Source: a virus
Direction: 5' to 3' (one strand)
Virus record (IMG/VR): IMGVR_UViG_3300005563_000068
Span: 1 to 35,234 of that record
DNA: 35,234 bases
The notes under the pieces are model-generated. The model was not told where the DNA came from. It saw nothing but the letters and a program-made list of their open reading frames with translations, and searched no databases. Positions 12,392 to 34,750 of this stretch are shown piece by piece. Positions within the stretch are counted from its first letter, which is position 1, and every line of letters begins with the position of its first letter. A program made the translations under genes and the position numbers.

Positions 12392-13125
12392 TGTCGGTCG
12401 TCAGGGGGGATATTGCTGCCGTCGGAGACTACCGCGCCTTCGCGCTCAAGCGTGCGCAGTCACTTGGCGTGTTCACGTCGACGCCGGCAGTTTTTGAAGA
12501 CCCGTTCACCGATAAGCTCGGCGCCGGAGCGTCGAAGTGGAAAACCACGCTCGGCGGTACGGGCGCCGTGTCGATTCTCCAGGACGTGTCAGGCGGTGTC
12601 GCTCGCATGGATTCTGGCGGCTCGGCGAGCGGCAGCGTCCTTGCGCCGATCGGCGCCGGCACCGACCTTCCGTCTCTGATTCCAGACCCGGGGATTACGG
12701 CCAGTCGGTGGTATCTGTTTTGGGTTTTCAGGGTTCCGACGACGGTCGATAACAAGGCCGCGCAATACATCGAGCTTACGAAGGCGTCAGGCTCTGCGAC
12801 GAACTCGGTTTACATCGGCGTAGACGGCGCGTTCGCAAGCACCACAAAGTTTATGGTCGAGGACAACACCGCAGCAACCCTGTCAACCGTATCCATCGAC
12901 GCGAACTGGCACTATGTGGAGGTTTGGCAGACCGGCACTGCCCGCGTGGTCAAATTTTCCTTCGACAACGAGGCGCCTGTCTCGTTCACCATGGCGGCAA
13001 ACAACGGCGGGTTTACGCTGCCTAGGTTTTGGGTGGCGAACGGAACTACCGCTGCCTCGCAGAAGCTCGACAACGACCATTTCATCATGCTGACGCCGAG
13101 CAACGTGACGCTTCCGAACACCTAA
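12391..13125 (+). CDS. Concanavalin/LamG-like putative virion surface protein
   Basis: A 244-residue protein read from the ATG that overlaps the preceding TGA; the frame stays open 48 bases further upstream but that part lies in the previous gene. From residue about 40 it reads as a beta-sandwich (VFEDPFTDKL, ARMDSGGSASGSVLAPIG, RWYLFWVFRVPTTV, DANWHYVEVWQTGTARVVKF, FDNEAPVSFTMA). The W-x-x-V-E-V then F-D-N-E pattern is typical of ConA-like/LamG folds. It may bind a glycan on the particle or host. The fold call is by pattern only. Confidence 0.6.
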   Translation: MSVVRGDIAAVGDYRAFALKRAQSLGVFTSTPAVFEDPFTDKLGAGASKWKTTLGGTGAVSILQDVSGGVARMDSGGSASGSVLAPIGAGTDLPSLIPDPGITASRWYLFWVFRVPTTVDNKAAQYIELTKASGSATNSVYIGVDGAFASTTKFMVEDNTAATLSTVSIDANWHYVEVWQTGTARVVKFSFDNEAPVSFTMAANNGGFTLPRFWVANGTTAASQKLDNDHFIMLTPSNVTLPNT

Positions 13126-13127
13126 CA

Positions 13128-13343
13128 ATGACAGACCAAGGTCGCCACCTGACAGCAATTTCCATCGCCGCCGCGGTGGCGGTCGCGGCGTCCATATTCA
13201 AGGTGTGCGACCAGCAGCTGTACATGATCGCGTCGGGCATCATCGCGGGTGAATACGCCCTGGCGCGGTCTGCTCCTGCGGTGACGAGCAACAACAATCA
13301 CCCCGTCACCATCAACCAACAGGAGCCGCGTGTCGCTCCATGA
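13128..13343 (+). CDS. Holin-like small membrane protein
   Basis: A 71-residue protein with two hydrophobic segments, about residues 8-24 (LTAISIAAAVAVAASIF) and 30-47 (LYMIASGIIAGEYALA), and a polar, Asn/Gln-rich C-terminus. Size, topology and position just before the endolysin block fit a small holin that permeabilises the inner membrane. The start is the ATG 2 bases after the preceding stop; a longer frame begins inside the lectin-like gene and is rejected. Small membrane proteins cannot be assigned as holins by sequence alone. Confidence 0.55.
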   Translation: MTDQGRHLTAISIAAAVAVAASIFKVCDQQLYMIASGIIAGEYALARSAPAVTSNNNHPVTINQQEPRVAP

Positions 13344-13536: not shown

Positions 13537-13641
13537 ATGGACAAGCTGCTCAAGCAGCTAAGCGAGGCGGCAGAGGAGACCCGTCGGTACCTGCACGACT
13601 GCGTTGTTGATGCGGTGGCGAGGGGAGCCGGCGGTGGGTGA
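13537..13641 (+). CDS. 34-residue coiled-coil-like microprotein
   Basis: ATG at 13537 lies two bases after the stop of the 64-residue protein. The product (MDKLLKQLSEAAEETRRYL, then a short Gly-rich tail) is a single amphipathic helix. Third positions are G/C-rich. It could alternatively be the C-terminus of a 103-residue protein in the same frame starting at GTG 13330, or the two small ORFs could be linked by a frameshift. The function is unknown. Confidence 0.4.
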   Translation: MDKLLKQLSEAAEETRRYLHDCVVDAVARGAGGG

Positions 13642-13987
13642 CACCGAGCCAGAATACGTCCTCGAGTACGACGACGACCTCGAAGTCCCGTTCAAGGGCG
13701 AGGAGACGCCGACCAAGCTGGAAGACCCGGGCGCGTGCTGGAAGTGCTGGAAGCTGATGCCAGTCCAAATCGTTGCGCCTGCCCCAGGCTCCGTGCATGA
13801 GGCGCTTCGCTATCACACGTGCATCGCATCGGCCGGTGGTGGCTGGTCGGTATGTGCGGTCCACATGGTTCTGCGCCTCGGGGAATGGGAGCTGTATTTC
13901 GGACCGGAGCGGCGCGCGGCGAAGTTGCCGCCGCCACACGGCGAGCGGAGGCGCTTCCCTCCGCGGAAAGACGGAGACGACAGATGA
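13634..13987 (+). CDS. Acidic Cys-containing protein in lysis block
   Basis: A 117-residue protein read from GTG 13634, which has GGGGAG six bases upstream and overlaps the previous stop. The first 35 residues are very acidic (EPEYVLEYDDDLEVPF). A GACWKCWKL motif and later HTCIASAGGGWSVC supply four Cys and a His that could bind a metal. The C-terminal third is basic and Pro-rich. Its ATGA overlap with the endolysin gene suggests co-expression. No family is recognised. Confidence 0.55.
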   Translation: MGDTEPEYVLEYDDDLEVPFKGEETPTKLEDPGACWKCWKLMPVQIVAPAPGSVHEALRYHTCIASAGGGWSVCAVHMVLRLGEWELYFGPERRAAKLPPPHGERRRFPPRKDGDDR

Positions 13988-14436
13988 GGTCACGATTCTT
14001 CACGGTCGACGAGTTCCGCTGCCATAGTGGCGATCCTTACCCCGCCGCATGGGTCGATGACCGCTTACAGGCGCTCTGCACCGCCCTCGACGCCATCCGT
14101 GATGCCTGGGACGGTCCAATCGCCGTCGTCTGCGGCTACCGGACTGCTGCCTACAACGAGGCGCTGGCGAAGGCTAGCGCGGCTCGCAACGGCGGCGTGT
14201 CTGGCGTGGCCCAGAACAGCCAGCACATCCAGGGACGCGCCGCAGACGTTCGCCCTGCCGCCTCTCCGACTGTCGAGCGGGTGGCGTCGTTGCACAGGCT
14301 GACGAAGGAGCTGCACGACCGCGGCATCATCCGCATCGGCGGGCTCGGCCTGTATCCTGGTTGGATCCACGTCGATGTCAGAGCAGGCGACCGCCTTGCC
14401 ATGTGGGGCGGCAACGGCATGGGTGACGCGCAGTGA
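13984..14436 (+). CDS. Endolysin, M15-family peptidase
   Basis: A 150-residue zinc peptidase of the M15 type that should cut peptide cross-links of peptidoglycan. The zinc ligands are visible: His81 in NSQHIQGRAADVR, Asp88 seven residues later, and His129 in GWIHVDVR, with the supporting Asp131. CGYRTAAYNEAL (50-61) is the conserved substrate-loop segment. The length is typical of a single-domain endolysin with no separate cell-wall-binding domain and no signal peptide, so it would depend on a holin. The start overlaps the upstream stop (ATGA). Confidence 0.9.
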   Translation: MRSRFFTVDEFRCHSGDPYPAAWVDDRLQALCTALDAIRDAWDGPIAVVCGYRTAAYNEALAKASAARNGGVSGVAQNSQHIQGRAADVRPAASPTVERVASLHRLTKELHDRGIIRIGGLGLYPGWIHVDVRAGDRLAMWGGNGMGDAQ

Positions 14437-14954
14437 GGACGCTTATCGTCCTGTTGGCCCTTGCCGGTTGTCGCCAGCAAGTCAACTGGCTGCCCGACCC
14501 GAAGTGGTCCGCCGTGCCGATCACGGTGCGCTGGGACGGCATCGATCCGGTGTTCGACGGCAGCTTGCACTACGCGGTCGATGCCTGGAACCACGCGGCC
14601 GGGTGCGACGTGCTGCGAGAGGCCGCCGACGCGCGGGTGACGGTGTCGACCTACGACGGGACGGCATGCGGGGCGCCGGCTCAGCTCGAGCGAGCCCTTG
14701 GCGCGACGGCCGGGACGTGGCGGTGCTCGGCTGACTCGGCAGAAGTGCGCTTCCAGGTCATGTCGGACATCCGCAGCGTCTACGTCATCGCGGCGCACGA
14801 GTTCGGGCACGTCCTGGGCCTGGGCCACGACAGGAGCGCCATCATGCAAGAGGCGCCGACACTGTACGACCAGGCGGTGGGGCACAACATGGCGGCGCTG
14901 CCGTGGCCGTCAGACGCTGACGGGGCCGCCGTGGGCGCGAGGTACTGCCGATGA
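14433..14954 (+). CDS. Lipoprotein matrixin-like zinc metalloprotease
   Basis: A 173-residue secreted lipoprotein. Residues 1-13 are a signal peptide with lipobox LAGC (Cys13). A metzincin zinc site HEFGHVLGLGHD is at 122-133, followed by SAIM with a candidate Met-turn at Met138, as in matrixins (family M10). Upstream is YAVDAWNHAAGCDV, a helix seen in this fold. Additional Cys residues may form disulfides. The GTG start overlaps the endolysin stop and the stop overlaps the next gene, placing it inside the lysis operon. It may attack envelope proteins at lysis, or alter the lysogen surface; both are inference. Confidence 0.85.
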   Translation: MRTLIVLLALAGCRQQVNWLPDPKWSAVPITVRWDGIDPVFDGSLHYAVDAWNHAAGCDVLREAADARVTVSTYDGTACGAPAQLERALGATAGTWRCSADSAEVRFQVMSDIRSVYVIAAHEFGHVLGLGHDRSAIMQEAPTLYDQAVGHNMAALPWPSDADGAAVGARYCR

Positions 14955-15229
14955 GCGATGCTGAGACCATCAAGGAACTGCGCCGGCAACTTCGCATCCA
15001 GCAAGAGGCGCTCGAACGGAAGAACCGCGAACTGGACGCGCTCCACTTCGTCTGGTGCGACGGCACCTGTTCAAGCGGCGTCAATCGCTGGTGCGACGAT
15101 GAGAAGATCACCGAGGAGCTTGTCGAGCTCGCAGAGCGGAACACTCGTCGGCTTCGACGATGGTGGAACAACCGCGTATTCCGTGAGAGATGCCAGCAAT
15201 TCTTCGCAGACTCCAAGAGGGCAGCATGA
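14951..15229 (+). CDS. Coiled-coil protein with CDGTC motif
   Basis: A 92-residue charged helical protein. The N-terminus is a coiled coil (ETIKELRRQLRIQQEALERK), then comes HFVWCDGTCSSGVNRWCDD, then ITEELVELAERNTRRLRRWW. The Trp-Cys-x3-Cys-x2-Gly-Val pattern followed by a Glu/Arg helix recalls a small phage family of unknown function, by memory only. There is no signal peptide or membrane span. The start and stop overlap both neighbours in the lysis operon, so it is co-expressed with the metalloprotease and the spanin-like gene. Confidence 0.65.
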   Translation: MSDAETIKELRRQLRIQQEALERKNRELDALHFVWCDGTCSSGVNRWCDDEKITEELVELAERNTRRLRRWWNNRVFRERCQQFFADSKRAA

Positions 15230-15771
15230 GCCCGCGGTGGCTCGGACTCATCCCCGTCGCGGCGCTTCTCGGCGTGCTATTCGGCCGGCACTACGGACCT
15301 GAACGTATCAAGGACGTTTATAAGACCGATGTAGTCTATAAGGATCGCGTCGTCGAGAAAATCGTTCACGACGTGCAGGTGCAGCACGACGTAGCGACGC
15401 AGACCCGCACGGTGACGGTCACGAAGTGGGCGAAGGCGCCCGACGGCTCGCCAGTGGTCACGCAGGAGACGCACGCCGAGAAGGACCAGCAGGCCGAGAC
15501 GAAGCGCCAGGCCCGCACGCGGGGCACGCAGGAGCGGCAGAGCGAGGCGCACCAGGCGACCGTCGAGACGCACGCCGTCGAGGCGCGACCGAACTGGTCG
15601 GTCGCGCTACTAGCCGGCGTGCAAGACGGCGGTAAGCGACTTGTCGACGCGCTACCATGGCCGCTTGTCGTAGGCGTATCCGCCGAGCACCGCCTCATTG
15701 GTCCGCTCTCCGCCGGCATCTGGGGAACTACCAGTCGCGCGGCCGGCATCTCGGTGCGCCTGGATTTCTGA
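15226..15771 (+). CDS. Membrane-anchored spanin-like protein
   Basis: A 181-residue protein starting at the ATG overlapping the previous TGA. Residues 4-20 are a hydrophobic N-terminal anchor (RWLGLIPVAALLGVLFG). A long charged helical periplasmic region follows (VYKTDVVYKDRVVEKIVHD, EKDQQAETKRQARTRG). The C-terminal about 60 residues are beta-like (VALLAGVQ, LVVGVSAEHRLIGPLSAGIW, AAGISVRLDF). The order holin, endolysin, then an anchored coiled-coil protein fits an inner-membrane spanin; the lipoprotein partner could be the metalloprotease. Its last 120 bases overlap a convergent gene. Confidence 0.6.
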   Translation: MSPRWLGLIPVAALLGVLFGRHYGPERIKDVYKTDVVYKDRVVEKIVHDVQVQHDVATQTRTVTVTKWAKAPDGSPVVTQETHAEKDQQAETKRQARTRGTQERQSEAHQATVETHAVEARPNWSVALLAGVQDGGKRLVDALPWPLVVGVSAEHRLIGPLSAGIWGTTSRAAGISVRLDF

Positions 15772-22985: not shown

Positions 22986-23855
22986 GTGCTACAGCTCGAA
23001 CTGAGGGGAGTTTCGACAGCTGGTACGCTGAGACACGCGCTCGATCATCTTCTCGCGAACGCGTTGGAATGCCGGCCGTGGACGCGCAGGATGCACGACG
23101 TTCACCGGAGGTACCTGCTGGAATGGTTCGGTGACCGGCAGCTCGACTCGATCGGGTACCCGCTGATCCAGCGGTACTATCTAGAAGAGCAACGGCGAGG
23201 GATGGCACGCGAGACCATCAGGAAGCGCCTCTCGACGCTGCACATGGCTCTCGCCGAGGCCGTTCGGCAGGGCTGGATCGAAAAGGTCCCACCCTGGGTT
23301 GTGATTAAGACGGACAGCCGCCCGAAGGACGCTTTCTGGACGCTGGTGCAGTGGGAGGCGGCGCACCTCGCGTGTGACGATGAAGACCTGCGAACCTGGA
23401 TCGCCTGCGGCTGGTGGACCGGCATGCACACGTCCGACCTCAACCGCTTCCGGTGGACTGACGTCGACCTCGTGAAGAAGACCTGGGTCAGGAGGAACAC
23501 AAAGACCGGCATCGCCCCGGTGACCCTCCCGATGCCAGATCGGCTTTGGCGGGTCCTCTCCGAGCGCCAGGAAGCGATTCAGCCGCACCCGAGGGACCTG
23601 GTGGCCGGCCGCAACATGGGGCACCCGAATAGGCCAATGCGTGCCGTCTGCCATCGGGCTGACGTGCCGCTCATCTCTCCGATCGGTCTGCGGCACTCGT
23701 GCGAGACGTTCCTAGAAGAACGGGGAACGACCGAGCTCTTCCAGATGACGTGGATGGGCCTGAAGAGTCCCGCTATGCTCAAGAAGGTCTATCGGCACAT
23801 CACGCCACCGACCATCGACGGTGGCGTTGCGGCGCTGAACGCGTCCGTGGAATGA
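22986..23855 (+). CDS. int: Tyrosine recombinase (integrase) with unusual active site
   Basis: A 289-residue phage integrase with GTG start and GGAGG six bases upstream. Residues 10-100 are the SAM-like core-binding domain (LDSIGYPLIQRYYLEEQ, IRKRLSTLHMALAEAVRQGW). The catalytic domain follows, with TGMHTSDLNRFRWTDVDL, TKTG (Lys173), IGLRHSCETFLEERG (Arg236) and LKKVYRHI (Tyr269). By position His148 replaces the first Arg, Ile233 the His of HxxR, and Leu259 the next His/Trp, so three of six catalytic positions differ. It is adjacent to a tRNA-fragment attachment site. Expected role: insertion into a host tRNA-Phe gene. Confidence 0.82.
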   Translation: MLQLELRGVSTAGTLRHALDHLLANALECRPWTRRMHDVHRRYLLEWFGDRQLDSIGYPLIQRYYLEEQRRGMARETIRKRLSTLHMALAEAVRQGWIEKVPPWVVIKTDSRPKDAFWTLVQWEAAHLACDDEDLRTWIACGWWTGMHTSDLNRFRWTDVDLVKKTWVRRNTKTGIAPVTLPMPDRLWRVLSERQEAIQPHPRDLVAGRNMGHPNRPMRAVCHRADVPLISPIGLRHSCETFLEERGTTELFQMTWMGLKSPAMLKKVYRHITPPTIDGGVAALNASVE

Positions 23856-24127: not shown

Positions 24128-24180
24128 CTCGGAGGAACGCATGGAGACGAACACCGTCTGTCCGTGCGTCGTGCACCCAG

Positions 24181-24230
24181 ACGGACTGAAAATCCATGTG
24201 TGGACAGTTCGATTCTGTCCCTGGGCACCA
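24181..24230 (+). other. attP core: 3' half of tRNA-Phe(GAA)
   Basis: These 50 bases fold as the 3' half of a tRNA: anticodon loop CTGAAAA (24186-24192) with anticodon GAA, a partly paired anticodon stem, variable loop GTGTG, a perfect T-arm GACAG-TTCGATT-CTGTC (24203-24219), acceptor strand CCTGGGC, discriminator A and CCA. No matching GCCCAGG acceptor strand or D-arm lies upstream, so it is not a whole gene. Next to an integrase gene this is the usual form of an attP site that restores the host tRNA on insertion. Confidence 0.8.
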
Positions 24231-26735: not shown

Positions 26736-27344
26736 ATGAACTGCCCTGACTGCAACGGAGAGTCAAAGGTGATCAAGACGATCATCGGAGTTGGCGTACG
26801 CCAACGGTACCGTAATTGCCAGTCGTGTGGGACTAGGTGGGTGTCAGAGGAGCGCAACCTCAAGGTTCGCTGGGGCTCTTCGGTTGCCCGTAACCAGCCC
26901 GCAACCGACAGCCAACCACCGCCAACAACCGGCAACCACCCCCCAACTGTAGCCAACGGTTGGGGGGTAGGGGGGGATCTGTCTTCAGGATCCGATCCGT
27001 ATCCGGATCCTATCAGCAGATCCGGATCCTACAGCGATCGAGATCCTGATCCGCGGGCGCGGTTTAAGTATCCGGACTCTTTCGAGGCCGTATGGGCTGG
27101 GACCGGCGGTAAGGGAGGCAAGAAAGCTGCGTTCACTGCGTGGAAGAAAGCAGGATCTCCGCCCTGGGGAGAGCTCGCCGCGACTTGGGGTGCTTACATG
27201 CTTTCTGAGCGTGTGGCAAGGGGGTACCTGAAGGACCTGTCTGGTTGGTTCAACGCTGGGTACCACCAGCAAACCTGGGTTCCGTACGAGCCCAAGCTAC
27301 GCGCTGTTGCTGGCTGGCGGTCCTCGACCGGGGATGACATGTGA
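26736..27344 (+). CDS. O-like replication protein with N-terminal zinc ribbon
   Basis: A 202-residue protein directly before the DnaB helicase gene. Residues 3-31 form a zinc ribbon (CPDC then CQSC). The middle (45-110) is disordered, Pro/Asn/Ser/Asp-rich, and coded by strongly repetitive DNA. Residues 116-180 (FEAVWAGTGGKGGKKAAFTA, WGAYMLSERVARGYLKDL, SGWFNAGYHQQTW) resemble the C-terminal domain of phage initiator/helicase-loader proteins, which ends in a x-x-W-L/F-N-x-G motif. It probably recruits DnaB. As in lambda O, the origin may lie inside this gene. Confidence 0.65.
   Translation: MNCPDCNGESKVIKTIIGVGVRQRYRNCQSCGTRWVSEERNLKVRWGSSVARNQPATDSQPPPTTGNHPPTVANGWGVGGDLSSGSDPYPDPISRSGSYSDRDPDPRARFKYPDSFEAVWAGTGGKGGKKAAFTAWKKAGSPPWGELAATWGAYMLSERVARGYLKDLSGWFNAGYHQQTWVPYEPKLRAVAGWRSSTGDDM
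26938..26976 (+). other. Hairpin and G-run, part of a candidate replication origin
   Basis: ACCCCCCAAC (26938-26947) and GTTGGGGGGT (26959-26968) form a perfect 10-bp hairpin with an 11-base loop. A run of seven G follows at 26970-26976. The bases just before carry several CAACC/CCAAC copies (26890-26940). Confidence 0.6.
26988..27075 (+). repeat. GGATCC-based iteron-like cluster
   Basis: GGATCC occurs at 26988, 27005 and 27024, with further GATCC or TATCCGGA copies up to about 27075. The longest shared unit is ATCCGGATCCTA at 27001-27012 and 27020-27031. It lies inside the O-like gene and codes for a low-complexity linker (DPYPDPISRSGSYSDRDPDP). Position and structure recall iterons of origins nested in initiator genes. 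Confidence 0.65.
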
Positions 27345-28645
27345 TGGAACTCCCCGCTGACATTGACGCCGAGCGCGCCGTGCTTGGCTGCATCCTGATC
27401 CGAGAGCGCCTGTCTGACGTCCTTGGCGAGCTCGAGGTTGATGACTTCGTGCTACCGGCGCACCGCGAGATCTTCTCGGTGATGCTGGACCTGTCGGCTT
27501 GGCGGTCGACGGTCGACATACTCACGGTGGCGGCCGAGCTTCGTCTTCGTGGGAAGATGGCAGGCCTAGAAGGCGAGGACGCGTATCTGCTCAAACTGAG
27601 CAATTGCGTCCCGACGGCGACATCGGTCCAGCATTACGTCGGCGTGGTCAGGGCGAGGTCGGCATCCCGTAGCCTGATTACCTCGTGCGCTGACGCCATG
27701 AGCAGGGCAGCCCGTGAGCCTGCGGACGATGTCACCGCAGATCTGCGCGTGTCACTCTCTGGCTTGCGATTAGAGCGCGGCGGACCGATTTCCTTGGGGG
27801 ACAGGCTTCCCGGGTATCTCGACGCCCTGGAGGCACGCCAAGCAGCCAAGAGCGAAGCCAGGGTCCCGTCTGGCCTTCGTGGCCTTGACAAGAAGCTCCT
27901 TGGCGGCATCGCCATGGGACAGGAGGTTGTGGTTGGCGCGAACCCAGGCATGGGGAAGACGTCCCTCGCCCTTCAGTGGGCCATTGAGGCGTCAAGGGCT
28001 GGCGTGCCGGTGCTCGTGTTCAGTCTCGAGATGATGGCTTCGGAGCTGCTCGACAGGGCGCTTTCCTACGTGTCTGGCATAGACGGCGCGCGCATCGCCA
28101 TGTCCGGAGGCCTCGACCTGGTCTCATGGAAGCGGGTTCAGGCGGCTTCGAAAGAGATGTCCTGGCCGATGTTCATCGACGACCGGAAGCTGACCATTGA
28201 CCAGATCGCATCGGAGACCATCAGGTGGCGCGACCGCAACCCGGGGCCGCGAGCACTGGTGGTGGTCGACTACCTGGGGCTGATTCGGTCGAAGGGCAAG
28301 GCAGAGAACCGCCAGCAGGAGGTAGGTGGTTGGTCGCGTGACCTGAAGATACTGGCAGGCGACGCGAAGGCCGGAATGTTGGTGTGCGCGCAGCTCAACC
28401 GGAAGAACGTCGAGAACGGCCCGCCCGAGAAGCCTGTGCTATCGAACCTGCGCGACTCTGGAGAGATCGAGCAGAACGCGGATACGGTGCTGTTCCCATG
28501 GCGCAATGGCTCGGTCGCTGAGATCGCCATAGCCAAGCAGCGCGGCGGTCCGGTTGGCGTGGCTCCAGTGCTGTGGAATGGGCAAACGACTAGCTTCCGT
28601 GACGACCAGGTCGCGCAGGAAGATGATGACGGGAGATGGATGTGA
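27344..28645 (+). CDS. dnaB: Replicative DNA helicase, DnaB family
   Basis: A 433-residue hexameric 5'-3' helicase. The N-terminal domain has the family start (LPADIDAERAVLGCILIRER). The RecA-like domain has Walker A GANPGMGKT (198-206), the VFSLEMMASELLDRAL segment (225-240), Walker B VVVDYLGLI (306-314) and the downstream QLNRK and DSGEIEQNADTVLF signatures. The length is typical. The preferred ATG 27344 overlaps the O-like gene's TGA; GTG 27341 is possible. It should unwind phage DNA after loading by the upstream gene product. Confidence 0.93.
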   Translation: MELPADIDAERAVLGCILIRERLSDVLGELEVDDFVLPAHREIFSVMLDLSAWRSTVDILTVAAELRLRGKMAGLEGEDAYLLKLSNCVPTATSVQHYVGVVRARSASRSLITSCADAMSRAAREPADDVTADLRVSLSGLRLERGGPISLGDRLPGYLDALEARQAAKSEARVPSGLRGLDKKLLGGIAMGQEVVVGANPGMGKTSLALQWAIEASRAGVPVLVFSLEMMASELLDRALSYVSGIDGARIAMSGGLDLVSWKRVQAASKEMSWPMFIDDRKLTIDQIASETIRWRDRNPGPRALVVVDYLGLIRSKGKAENRQQEVGGWSRDLKILAGDAKAGMLVCAQLNRKNVENGPPEKPVLSNLRDSGEIEQNADTVLFPWRNGSVAEIAIAKQRGGPVGVAPVLWNGQTTSFRDDQVAQEDDDGRWM

Positions 28646-33153: not shown

Positions 33154-33693
33154 ATGCCAAGCGAACATGCCGTAGCTCTCCTGCGCGTCTCGACCGAAAA
33201 GCAGCAGCTCGGCCTGGACGCCCAACGCGCCGCCATCTCTGCCTACGCCGCCAACCACGACATCGAAGTCATATCCTGGCACACCGAGATCGTGTCCGGA
33301 GGGGCGCCGTTCGAGGAGCGGTACGGGCTACAGGCTGCCTCTGACGACGTGGCCAGACTCGGCGCCCGGTACCTCATCGTGGCCAAGCGGGACAGGTTCA
33401 GTCGCGACCCGCTCGTGGCCATGCTGACCGAACGGTCTCTTGAGAAGCTTGGCGCGTCCGTGGTCTGCGCCGACGGCAACAACGAGACTGACCCTGCGTC
33501 CGAGCTGATCCGCCACATCCTGGACGGGGTGGCGCGGTTCGAGAGGCGGATGATCGGCCTGCGGACCAAGGCGGCGCTGGCGGCACGGAAGGCCGCTGGC
33601 CACCGGCTAGGGCGCCCTCCCGGCATCGTCGAGACCGAGCCCAGAAAGCGGCGCGTGTCAACGGCTACAAAACTCCCCCAGGTGGACGCGTGA
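33154..33693 (+). CDS. Small serine recombinase (resolvase/invertase type) without C-terminal HTH
   Basis: A 179-residue protein of the resolvase N-terminal family. The catalytic Ser13 lies in LLRVSTEKQQLGLDAQ, and the active-site Arg pair is in AKRDRFSRD (Arg81, Arg84). The long E helix reads RFERRMIGLRTKAALAARKA, followed by AGHRLGRPPG. Only about 20 residues remain after the RLGRPPG hinge, too few for the usual helix-turn-helix. It could resolve multimers, invert DNA, or be a decayed remnant. The stop overlaps the next gene's GTG. Confidence 0.82.
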   Translation: MPSEHAVALLRVSTEKQQLGLDAQRAAISAYAANHDIEVISWHTEIVSGGAPFEERYGLQAASDDVARLGARYLIVAKRDRFSRDPLVAMLTERSLEKLGASVVCADGNNETDPASELIRHILDGVARFERRMIGLRTKAALAARKAAGHRLGRPPGIVETEPRKRRVSTATKLPQVDA

Positions 33694-34145
33694 AGACTTG
33701 CGTTGTCCTGCTACTGGCCGCGGTCGGATGCGGATATCATCCGGACCAGGCGAAGGTTGTTCCTGCTCCGGAGCGAGCCGATGAGGCGACGGCACTCGTG
33801 GTCAAGGCGTTCGCCATCAGCCACCCGCCGGCCGTGTACTGGTACGCGCCTGACGACGGCTGCCACCCAGGCATCACCGACCCTGAAGGTGAATGCGTCT
33901 TTGGCTTTCGCGTTGACGACACCGCGGTCCTGTCAACGCAGAATGGCGTCCCCATGAGCCAAACGGCGCTGGCTCACGAGTTGGGGCACCTGGCCTCGCT
34001 CGAGCACGACGGCACGTCTGACAACGCGTGCCACAACGGCAGGTACTTCAAGGACCCAGGCGACGCGCAGGACTGCAAGATCCCGAGCGACCAGCGCGGA
34101 CTCGTAGGATCGGCGAACCGGATGCTCGAGGCCATGGGGCTGTAG
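33690..34145 (+). CDS. Second lipoprotein zinc metalloprotease (metzincin-like)
   Basis: A 151-residue secreted lipoprotein. The signal peptide is CVVLLLAAVGC with lipobox AVGC (Cys14). The zinc site HELGHLASLEHD is at 96-107: HExxH is intact and the third His is in place, but the metzincin Gly is Ser103. Cys residues (about 58, 69, 114 and 133) may form disulfides. GTG 33690 overlaps the recombinase stop. It has no close similarity by eye to the 14433 protease beyond lipobox and zinc site. It may be a lysogenic-conversion factor on the host surface; that is inference. Confidence 0.75.
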   Translation: MKTCVVLLLAAVGCGYHPDQAKVVPAPERADEATALVVKAFAISHPPAVYWYAPDDGCHPGITDPEGECVFGFRVDDTAVLSTQNGVPMSQTALAHELGHLASLEHDGTSDNACHNGRYFKDPGDAQDCKIPSDQRGLVGSANRMLEAMGL

Positions 34146-34221
34146 CGACAAATTGACATAGCTAGCGCCATTTTGGCGCGAGTGGCCTTGACAGCGGTTG
34201 CCAATCTGGCACGCTGTCCTC
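34146..34221. promoter_or_regulatory. Regulatory gap with two TTGACA-palindrome units
   Basis: TTGACA at 34153-34158 is followed after 8 bases by GCCATTTTGGC (34167-34177, extended to GCGCCATTTTGGCGC). TTGACA at 34188-34193 is followed after 6 bases by GCCAATCTGGC (34200-34210). The two units are 35 bases apart. No good -10 box follows either TTGACA. Confidence 0.45.
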
Positions 34222-34365
34222 GTGTCGTTCGCAAGCTTCCTGCGCATCGCGACGTTCGTAGCTTCTGTTGCGTGCGCTGTCCTGGCAGCGGCCAGCCTGA
34301 TTAGCGGCGTCGCCGCGATGTCAGACCTGCGCGCAAGGGTCGAGGCGCTGGAGTCGTGCCAGTGA
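34222..34365 (+). CDS. 47-residue membrane protein
   Basis: GTG 34222. The product (MSFASFLRIATFVASVACAV, then LAAASLISGVAAMSDLRARV) has one long hydrophobic helix and a short charged helical tail (DLRARVEALESCQ). No ribosome site is obvious. Its TGA overlaps the next GTG. Membrane role unknown; small phage proteins of this shape can be holin, antiholin or superinfection-exclusion proteins. Confidence 0.5.
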   Translation: MSFASFLRIATFVASVACAVLAAASLISGVAAMSDLRARVEALESCQ

Positions 34366-34460
34366 GCTTCGCCGAGGCTCACCCGGTCGCGCTGATCGCC
34401 ACGGCCATTTCGCTGGTCGTATTCCTGTCACTGCTGGCCATGCCGAGGCCGCGCGGATGA
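34362..34460 (+). CDS. 32-residue single-span membrane protein
   Basis: GTG 34362 overlaps the previous TGA. The product (SFAEAHPVALIATAISLVV, then FLSLLAMPRPRG) has a hydrophobic helix and a short basic C-terminus. Its TGA overlaps the next ATG, so the pair of tiny membrane genes and the 97-residue gene are coupled. Confidence 0.5.
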   Translation: MSFAEAHPVALIATAISLVVFLSLLAMPRPRG

Positions 34461-34750
34461 GCCAAGGGCAAGGATATGGCGGCGACTTGGCCCAACTATG
34501 CGGCAGTCCGTACGCGAACGCGCAGGCGAGCGCGTCGCTTCAGCAGCAGCCACCGCCGAAGCCGGCGGCCAAGATCCGCGCCCGCATCGCCGAACTTGAG
34601 AAGGTCCGCGCGAACTACGTCGGCTACCTGGCGTTCCGGAAGTCCGAGGCCGACTGGCACGGCTGCTGGGACGCCTCGGTCAACATCAGCGAGACCGAGT
34701 GTGAAATCGCCGGACTCAAGTTCGCCCTCGATGCGCTGGAGGCCGGATGA
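34457..34750 (+). CDS. 97-residue coiled-coil protein
   Basis: ATG 34457 overlaps the previous TGA. A Gln/Ala-rich start (ANAQASASLQQQPPPKPA) is followed by a helical region (KIRARIAELEKVRANYVGYL, ETECEIAGLKFALDALE) with ADWHGCWDASVNI between. No family is recognised. The stop overlaps the next ORF. Confidence 0.55.
   Translation: MSQGQGYGGDLAQLCGSPYANAQASASLQQQPPPKPAAKIRARIAELEKVRANYVGYLAFRKSEADWHGCWDASVNISETECEIAGLKFALDALEAG

Follow-up and report, generated by a model that had tools for sequence, protein, structure and literature searches.

The viral sequence analysed here (IMG/VR record IMGVR_UViG_3300005563_000068; 35,234 nucleotides, referred to below as the window) carries, directly behind an endolysin gene, a gene for a lipoprotein-type matrixin-like metzincin, which we judge, with a probability of about 0.55, to be a late-expressed, envelope-anchored protease of the lysis module that assists lysis. 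The evidence comprises the structure of the gene, homology to matrixins, a lipobox, purifying selection on the protein and a conserved linkage to lysins of three kinds.

The matrixin gene and its cassette

The matrixin gene (14433..14954, plus strand) starts with GTG and encodes 173 amino acids, with a short signal peptide (MRTLIVLLALAGC, residues 1-12), the lipobox LAGC at residues 10-13 (lipobox cysteine, Cys13), a metzincin site at residues 122-133 (HEFGHVLGLGHD, window positions 14796-14831; HExxHxxGxxH at residues 122-132) and a Met-turn methionine at residue 138. The lipobox and the full metzincin site with its Met-turn, both read from this sequence in the initial annotation, were borne out, and the protein matches PF00413 (Peptidase_M10) at 29.2 bits and E 9.8e-7 (curated cut-off, 24), a cut-off that was also exceeded by 7 of the 7 relatives described below. 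In these relatives the motif and the Met-turn, as well as the cysteines at positions 58, 79, 98 and 172 (besides Cys13), are conserved wherever the sequence is present.

Using the lipobox consensus [LVI][ASTVI][GAS]C of an SPII signal, the window matrixin is of the bacterial-lipoprotein type as judged from its sequence. The lipobox takes the forms LASC, LVGC, MVGC and LGAC in the relatives, with an invariant Cys beside a variable hydrophobic stretch of the signal peptide, which is the pattern expected of a processed lipoprotein signal. The residue at +2 of the lipobox Cys is Arg, and the matrixin domain begins within ~20 residues of this Cys. Of 21 pairwise dN/dS values for the mature domain, 20 fell between 0.06 and 0.13, and the most similar pair gave 0.27; the mature domain is thus under strong purifying selection. 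An AlphaFold model built from the shallow family alignment (pLDDT 38, pTM 0.27) was too poor for fold searches.

The catalytic motif, the Met-turn and the similarity over the catalytic domain are common to the window protein and the matrixins (M10), including the MMPs. Unlike the MMPs, however, the window protein has no hemopexin domain and carries Asp instead of Ser/Thr after the third His of the motif. It has neither a propeptide nor a cysteine switch, and residues 55-121 contain no His, so that the MMP structural zinc site is missing. A vertebrate-type MMP (M10A) was ruled out on the absence of the cysteine-switch propeptide and of this zinc site, and we refer to the protein as matrixin-like.

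The cassette around the matrixin lies on the plus strand. A holin candidate of 71 amino acids (13128..13343), proposed by position and by its one or two hydrophobic segments, had no family match in Pfam or PHROGs; a conserved protein of unknown function (13604..13987, with a true start that may lie downstream of 13604) directly precedes the M15 endolysin (13984..14436; 150 amino acids; PF08291, 6.5e-13; phrog_894 endolysin, 1e-19), in which no signal peptide was seen. The matrixin gene overlaps the M15 gene at GTGA (14433-14436), GTG being the start of the former and TGA the stop of the latter. Its other end overlaps, at ATGA (14951-14954), the ATG start of the following gene, an ORF for a charged protein of 92 amino acids and unknown function (14951..15229). 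Behind this ORF lies the gene for a spanin-like protein (15226..15771) with an N-terminal transmembrane (N-TM) segment, a long charged linker and a C-terminal beta-type region ending in Phe. The region contains no sigma-70-type promoter-like site. The initial annotation had placed the matrixin between the M15 endolysin and the spanin-like gene, with four-base overlaps on both sides. The order and the overlaps stand, while immediate adjacency to the spanin-like gene does not, given the 92-amino-acid ORF in between; this ORF is missing from the same place in five of the related loci (L004, L005, L006, L007 and L008).

Recurrence in relatives and exchange of the lysin

The matrixin gene was found in seven more IMG/VR viral records, at 87-99% amino-acid identity, and the phages that carry it form an uncultured group from soil. 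In 8 of 8 records (the window and the seven relatives) the matrixin lies behind the lysin of the cassette, with a four-base overlap in six records and with one ORF between the two genes in the other two (42 amino acids in L004, 45 amino acids in L006). The lysin is of the M15 type in the window, L003 and L005, a GH24 phage lysozyme (PF00959) in L004, L006 and L009, and a CHAP protein (PF05257) in L007 and L008, where representatives were classed by Pfam and PHROG and the remaining members by eye from close similarity; these are three unrelated families. The matrixin copy of L009 is cut and was completed in L016. The spanin-like gene lies downstream of the matrixin in every record reaching far enough, directly after it in L006, L007 and L008 (ATGA overlap) and after one other gene elsewhere. 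The virion genes of the genome that carries L006 (G004) are mostly without matches in the other records, some being common to G003, and its cassette is the same.

The exchange of lysins around a constant protease represents the strongest evidence that the matrixin belongs to the lysis module. As the eight matrixins are closely related, the linkage may go back to a single event that was inherited and then maintained by selection acting on the cassette as a whole. The initial annotation had made its proposal depend on finding a lysin next to a lipoprotein matrixin in other phages; this neighbourhood recurs in 7 further records and with three lysin families and, together with the four-base overlap with the M15 endolysin, supports the assignment of the matrixin to a lysis operon.

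The ORF that separates lysozyme and matrixin in L006 (5864-6001) encodes a strongly cationic product of 45 amino acids (MANHKRKRPKHQRMG...), which recalls the phage disruptin idea; it did not recur in the other records. No relatives of the window matrixin were found among the INPHARED phages or the PLSDB plasmids, or, with the patterns used, in GTDB contigs.

A search of IMG/VR with the degenerate pattern HE[LF]GH[VA][LF]G[LF][GA]HD yielded 29 loci, seven of which are the window matrixin family; among the rest, many are matrixins that belong to larger phages and have an N-TM anchor. Profile-profile comparison of the window family with eleven of these N-TM matrixins gave a probability of 99.1 and E 8.7e-19 (columns 25-174), and the combined profile matched MMP-20 at E 1.3e-12; both values are partly circular, as both comparison sets had been selected by motif. 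The profile comparisons support homology of the window family to matrixins across the catalytic domain. The N-TM matrixins (L073, L068, L063 and others) have the same domain as the window matrixin, and the closest of them share with it GC[ED]L/VL near the start and YC[RD] at the C-terminus. Unlike the window matrixin, they have an inner-membrane-type anchor and no recognised lysins nearby.

Only one recognised lysin was present among the 109 neighbours of the non-family motif loci. It lies on a 125.6-kb contig from an unrelated phage, where a lipoprotein-type matrixin (27% identity to the window matrixin; lipobox SFSC, off the consensus) is located 336 bp upstream of an Amidase_2 gene called as endolysin by PHROG. 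On a 39.8-kb contig, a secreted-type matrixin is located near TM proteins and an Rz1-like lipoprotein (phrog_1275, E 0.004), with no recognised lysin near it, and a 424-kb contig carries a matrixin and an Amidase_2 gene on the same strand, separated by ~4 kb. The matrixins of G008 and G009, when searched for relatives, gave hits in no contigs but their own. Overall, the association between matrixin and lysin recurs, but it is not the rule; with a single lysin among these neighbours and most such matrixins located elsewhere in large phages, phage matrixins need not be lysis proteins, and the proposition that all of them are was rejected. One further record (L084, 5266-7275), filed as Acinetobacter phage MD-2021a, carries dnaK, grpE, purK and purE beside two annotated matrixins and seems to be of bacterial and not of phage origin.

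The spanin-like protein and the search for an o-spanin

The product of 15226-15771 is spanin-like by topology only and had no spanin family match in PHROGs or Pfam. dN/dS values for its gene ranged from 0.15 to 0.75, as compared to mostly 0.06-0.13 for the mature domain of the matrixin, and a structure model from a shallow alignment (pLDDT 42) was too poor to enter fold searches. The single database relative of this product is encoded by Myxococcus phage Mx1 (E 7e-5) and is annotated as hypothetical. This protein (WNM70284.1; L040, 7743-8312) shows the same architecture of an N-terminal TM segment and a C-terminal beta-type region, and its gene overlaps by one base the ClpP-like gene that precedes it; a PF00413 search of the Mx1 genome gave no match. 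The spanin-like protein alone could carry the outer-membrane step.

A Myxococcota host is suggested by this single match to Mx1 (E 7e-5), which we take only as a lead. The window also encodes a tyrosine integrase (22986-23855; phrog_1, 1.1e-34), and a probable attP beside the integrase gene (~24170-24230) reads as the 3' part of a tRNA-Phe, which together point to a probably temperate phage. None of the GTDB contigs searched gave an exact match to this tRNA-Phe half.

By sequence, the N-TM spanin-like gene and the matrixin lipoprotein gene appear as a pair in the i-spanin/o-spanin position. Phages with diderm hosts frequently encode, at the place of the matrixin, a lipoprotein that breaks the outer membrane. 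The matrixin as a classical short, non-enzymatic o-spanin was ruled out, as the protein has 173 amino acids and an enzyme domain and had no spanin match in PHROGs. We searched every frame for a hidden o-spanin by means of a lipobox scan, with lambda, T7, P2 and P22 as the calibration set; the scan recovered lambda Rz1, Bor, T7 18.7 and P22 Rz1 and missed P2 LysC, so that it can miss some lipoproteins. Four of the relatives have direct terminal repeats of 99-123 bp, which is consistent with complete genomes, and in these four records the scan found no convincing small o-spanin or u-spanin lipoprotein. The only credible candidates in each of them, as judged by eye, were the matrixin and a second lipoprotein with an HExxH motif; other lipobox-like ORFs were read by eye as probable chance occurrences, on the wrong strand or inside other genes.

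The second lipoprotein, which carries a zincin-type HExxH (HELGHLASLEHD), is encoded outside the lysis cassette (33690..34145, plus strand) and is present in 7 of the 8 records, G001 being an 18-kb fragment. Further copies are located at 35860-36315 in G002, 12423-12875 in G003 and 41169-41642 in G005 and, on the minus strand, at 13947-14399 in G004 (a copy that came from the lipobox scan), 26881-27363 in G006 and 34029-34496 in G007, where the gene is opposite in orientation to the flanking virion genes. This protein changes fast, with 32-37% identity to the window copy where the search found it and with the motif forms HELGH, HEFAH, HELYH and HEMGH.

It is possible that the matrixin stands in place of an o-spanin. 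Recognisable spanins are missing from approximately 13% of the phage genomes surveyed, and the means by which these phages break the outer membrane is an open question (PMC6139136). One tentative and rather unlikely answer for the phages studied here is that outer-membrane disruption is enzymatic, with the lipid-anchored metzincin replacing the o-spanin and cutting proteins that hold or stabilise the outer membrane; that survey does not include proteolytic disruption in the alternatives it considers for phages without spanins (PMC6139136).

Proposed role of the matrixin in lysis

Late expression, lipidation, outer-membrane location, catalysis, a target and an effect on lysis would, as we infer, fit together as follows. 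Late in infection, the matrixin would be translated along with the endolysin, leave the cytoplasm through the Sec pathway and then be lipidated on Cys13. With Arg rather than Asp at +2 of the lipobox Cys, the Asp+2 retention rule for lipoproteins of E. coli does not apply, and the protein would probably be sorted to the outer membrane, on its periplasmic side. There, the matrixin domain could cut envelope proteins, with tethers that join the outer membrane to the wall, proteins of the outer membrane and the N-TM spanin-like protein of the same cassette as possible targets, and the envelope would fail once the endolysin had opened the wall. The outer-membrane part of this explanation assumes a diderm host. 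We count against a role in lysis that neither propeptide nor cysteine switch is present to hold the protease inactive before lysis.

The matrixin could alternatively cleave receptors or other surface proteins late in infection, so that progeny avoid debris or superinfecting phage is excluded, and share the operon only for timing. Phage outer-membrane lipoproteins that block receptors (Cor, Llp) are known, the lysin-swap pattern would suit any late gene travelling with the cassette, and the same phages carry the second HExxH lipoprotein. We nevertheless consider this unlikely, as a domain within ~20 residues of its anchor suits a periplasmic position (unless the protein is flipped to the surface), and a receptor-directed protein should diversify with receptor use, whereas the matrixin shows strict lysin linkage and slow change. 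A gene that landed in the lysis cassette by chance, as a moron or lysogenic-conversion gene, would agree with the temperate appearance of these phages (tyrosine integrase, tRNA-Phe 3' end beside it) and with the matrixins located away from lysins in large phages; the four-base overlaps with lysin genes, the absence of a sigma-70-type promoter-like site in the region and the same placement in all eight records, across three different lysins, make such an origin very unlikely.

The substrate could also be the co-encoded N-TM spanin-like protein, freed or activated by cleavage, as proposed for Mtz acting on Tim in Listeria. Matrixin and spanin-like gene occur together in all records extending far enough, and Mtz is implicated in the cleavage of Tim, with lysis enhanced only by the pair with active Mtz (PMC8235301). 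However, the spanin-like protein evolves much more rapidly than the protease and its Mx1 relative occurs without any PF00413 protein, and we regard this substrate as decidedly unlikely.

Compared to spanins of the Rz/Rz1 type, the window cassette is alike in the order of lysin and then envelope proteins, in the presence of one lipoprotein and one N-TM protein and in overlapping genes (PMC6139136). By its sequence, however, the window lipoprotein is predicted to have a folded enzyme domain, while Rz1 is a short peptide (PMC6139136), and its gene precedes the N-TM gene rather than being located inside or after it.

The Mtz-Tim pair of Listeria consists of a secreted metzincin (Mtz) and a lipoprotein (Tim) and is of phage origin (PMC8235301). 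The pair, tested as a chromosomal locus, sensitises Listeria cells to holin-lysin only if Mtz is catalytically active, and copies in prophages often lie downstream of holin-lysin (PMC8235301). The Mtz of L. monocytogenes and the window protein are both phage-derived metzincins (HEXXHXXGXXH/D, Met-turn) linked to lysin genes. Mtz has a Gram-positive host, carries an SPI signal and is secreted, with the lipoprotein as its partner, whereas in the window the metzincin itself is of the lipoprotein type and lies directly behind the lysin, beside an N-TM spanin-like protein. This precedent makes a lysis role of the window protein credible and lowers its novelty. The new lysis component proposed in the initial annotation would be new in the lipid anchor on the protease, in its direct coupling to the lysin and in its spanin-like partner, but not as a phage-derived, lysis-enhancing metzincin, which has already been published for Listeria (PMC8235301).

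If the matrixin does assist lysis, a lipid-anchored protease behind three interchangeable lysins would be a candidate for a proteolytic lysis step, and its role would carry the precedent of Listeria Mtz over to a different cassette and a different anchor.
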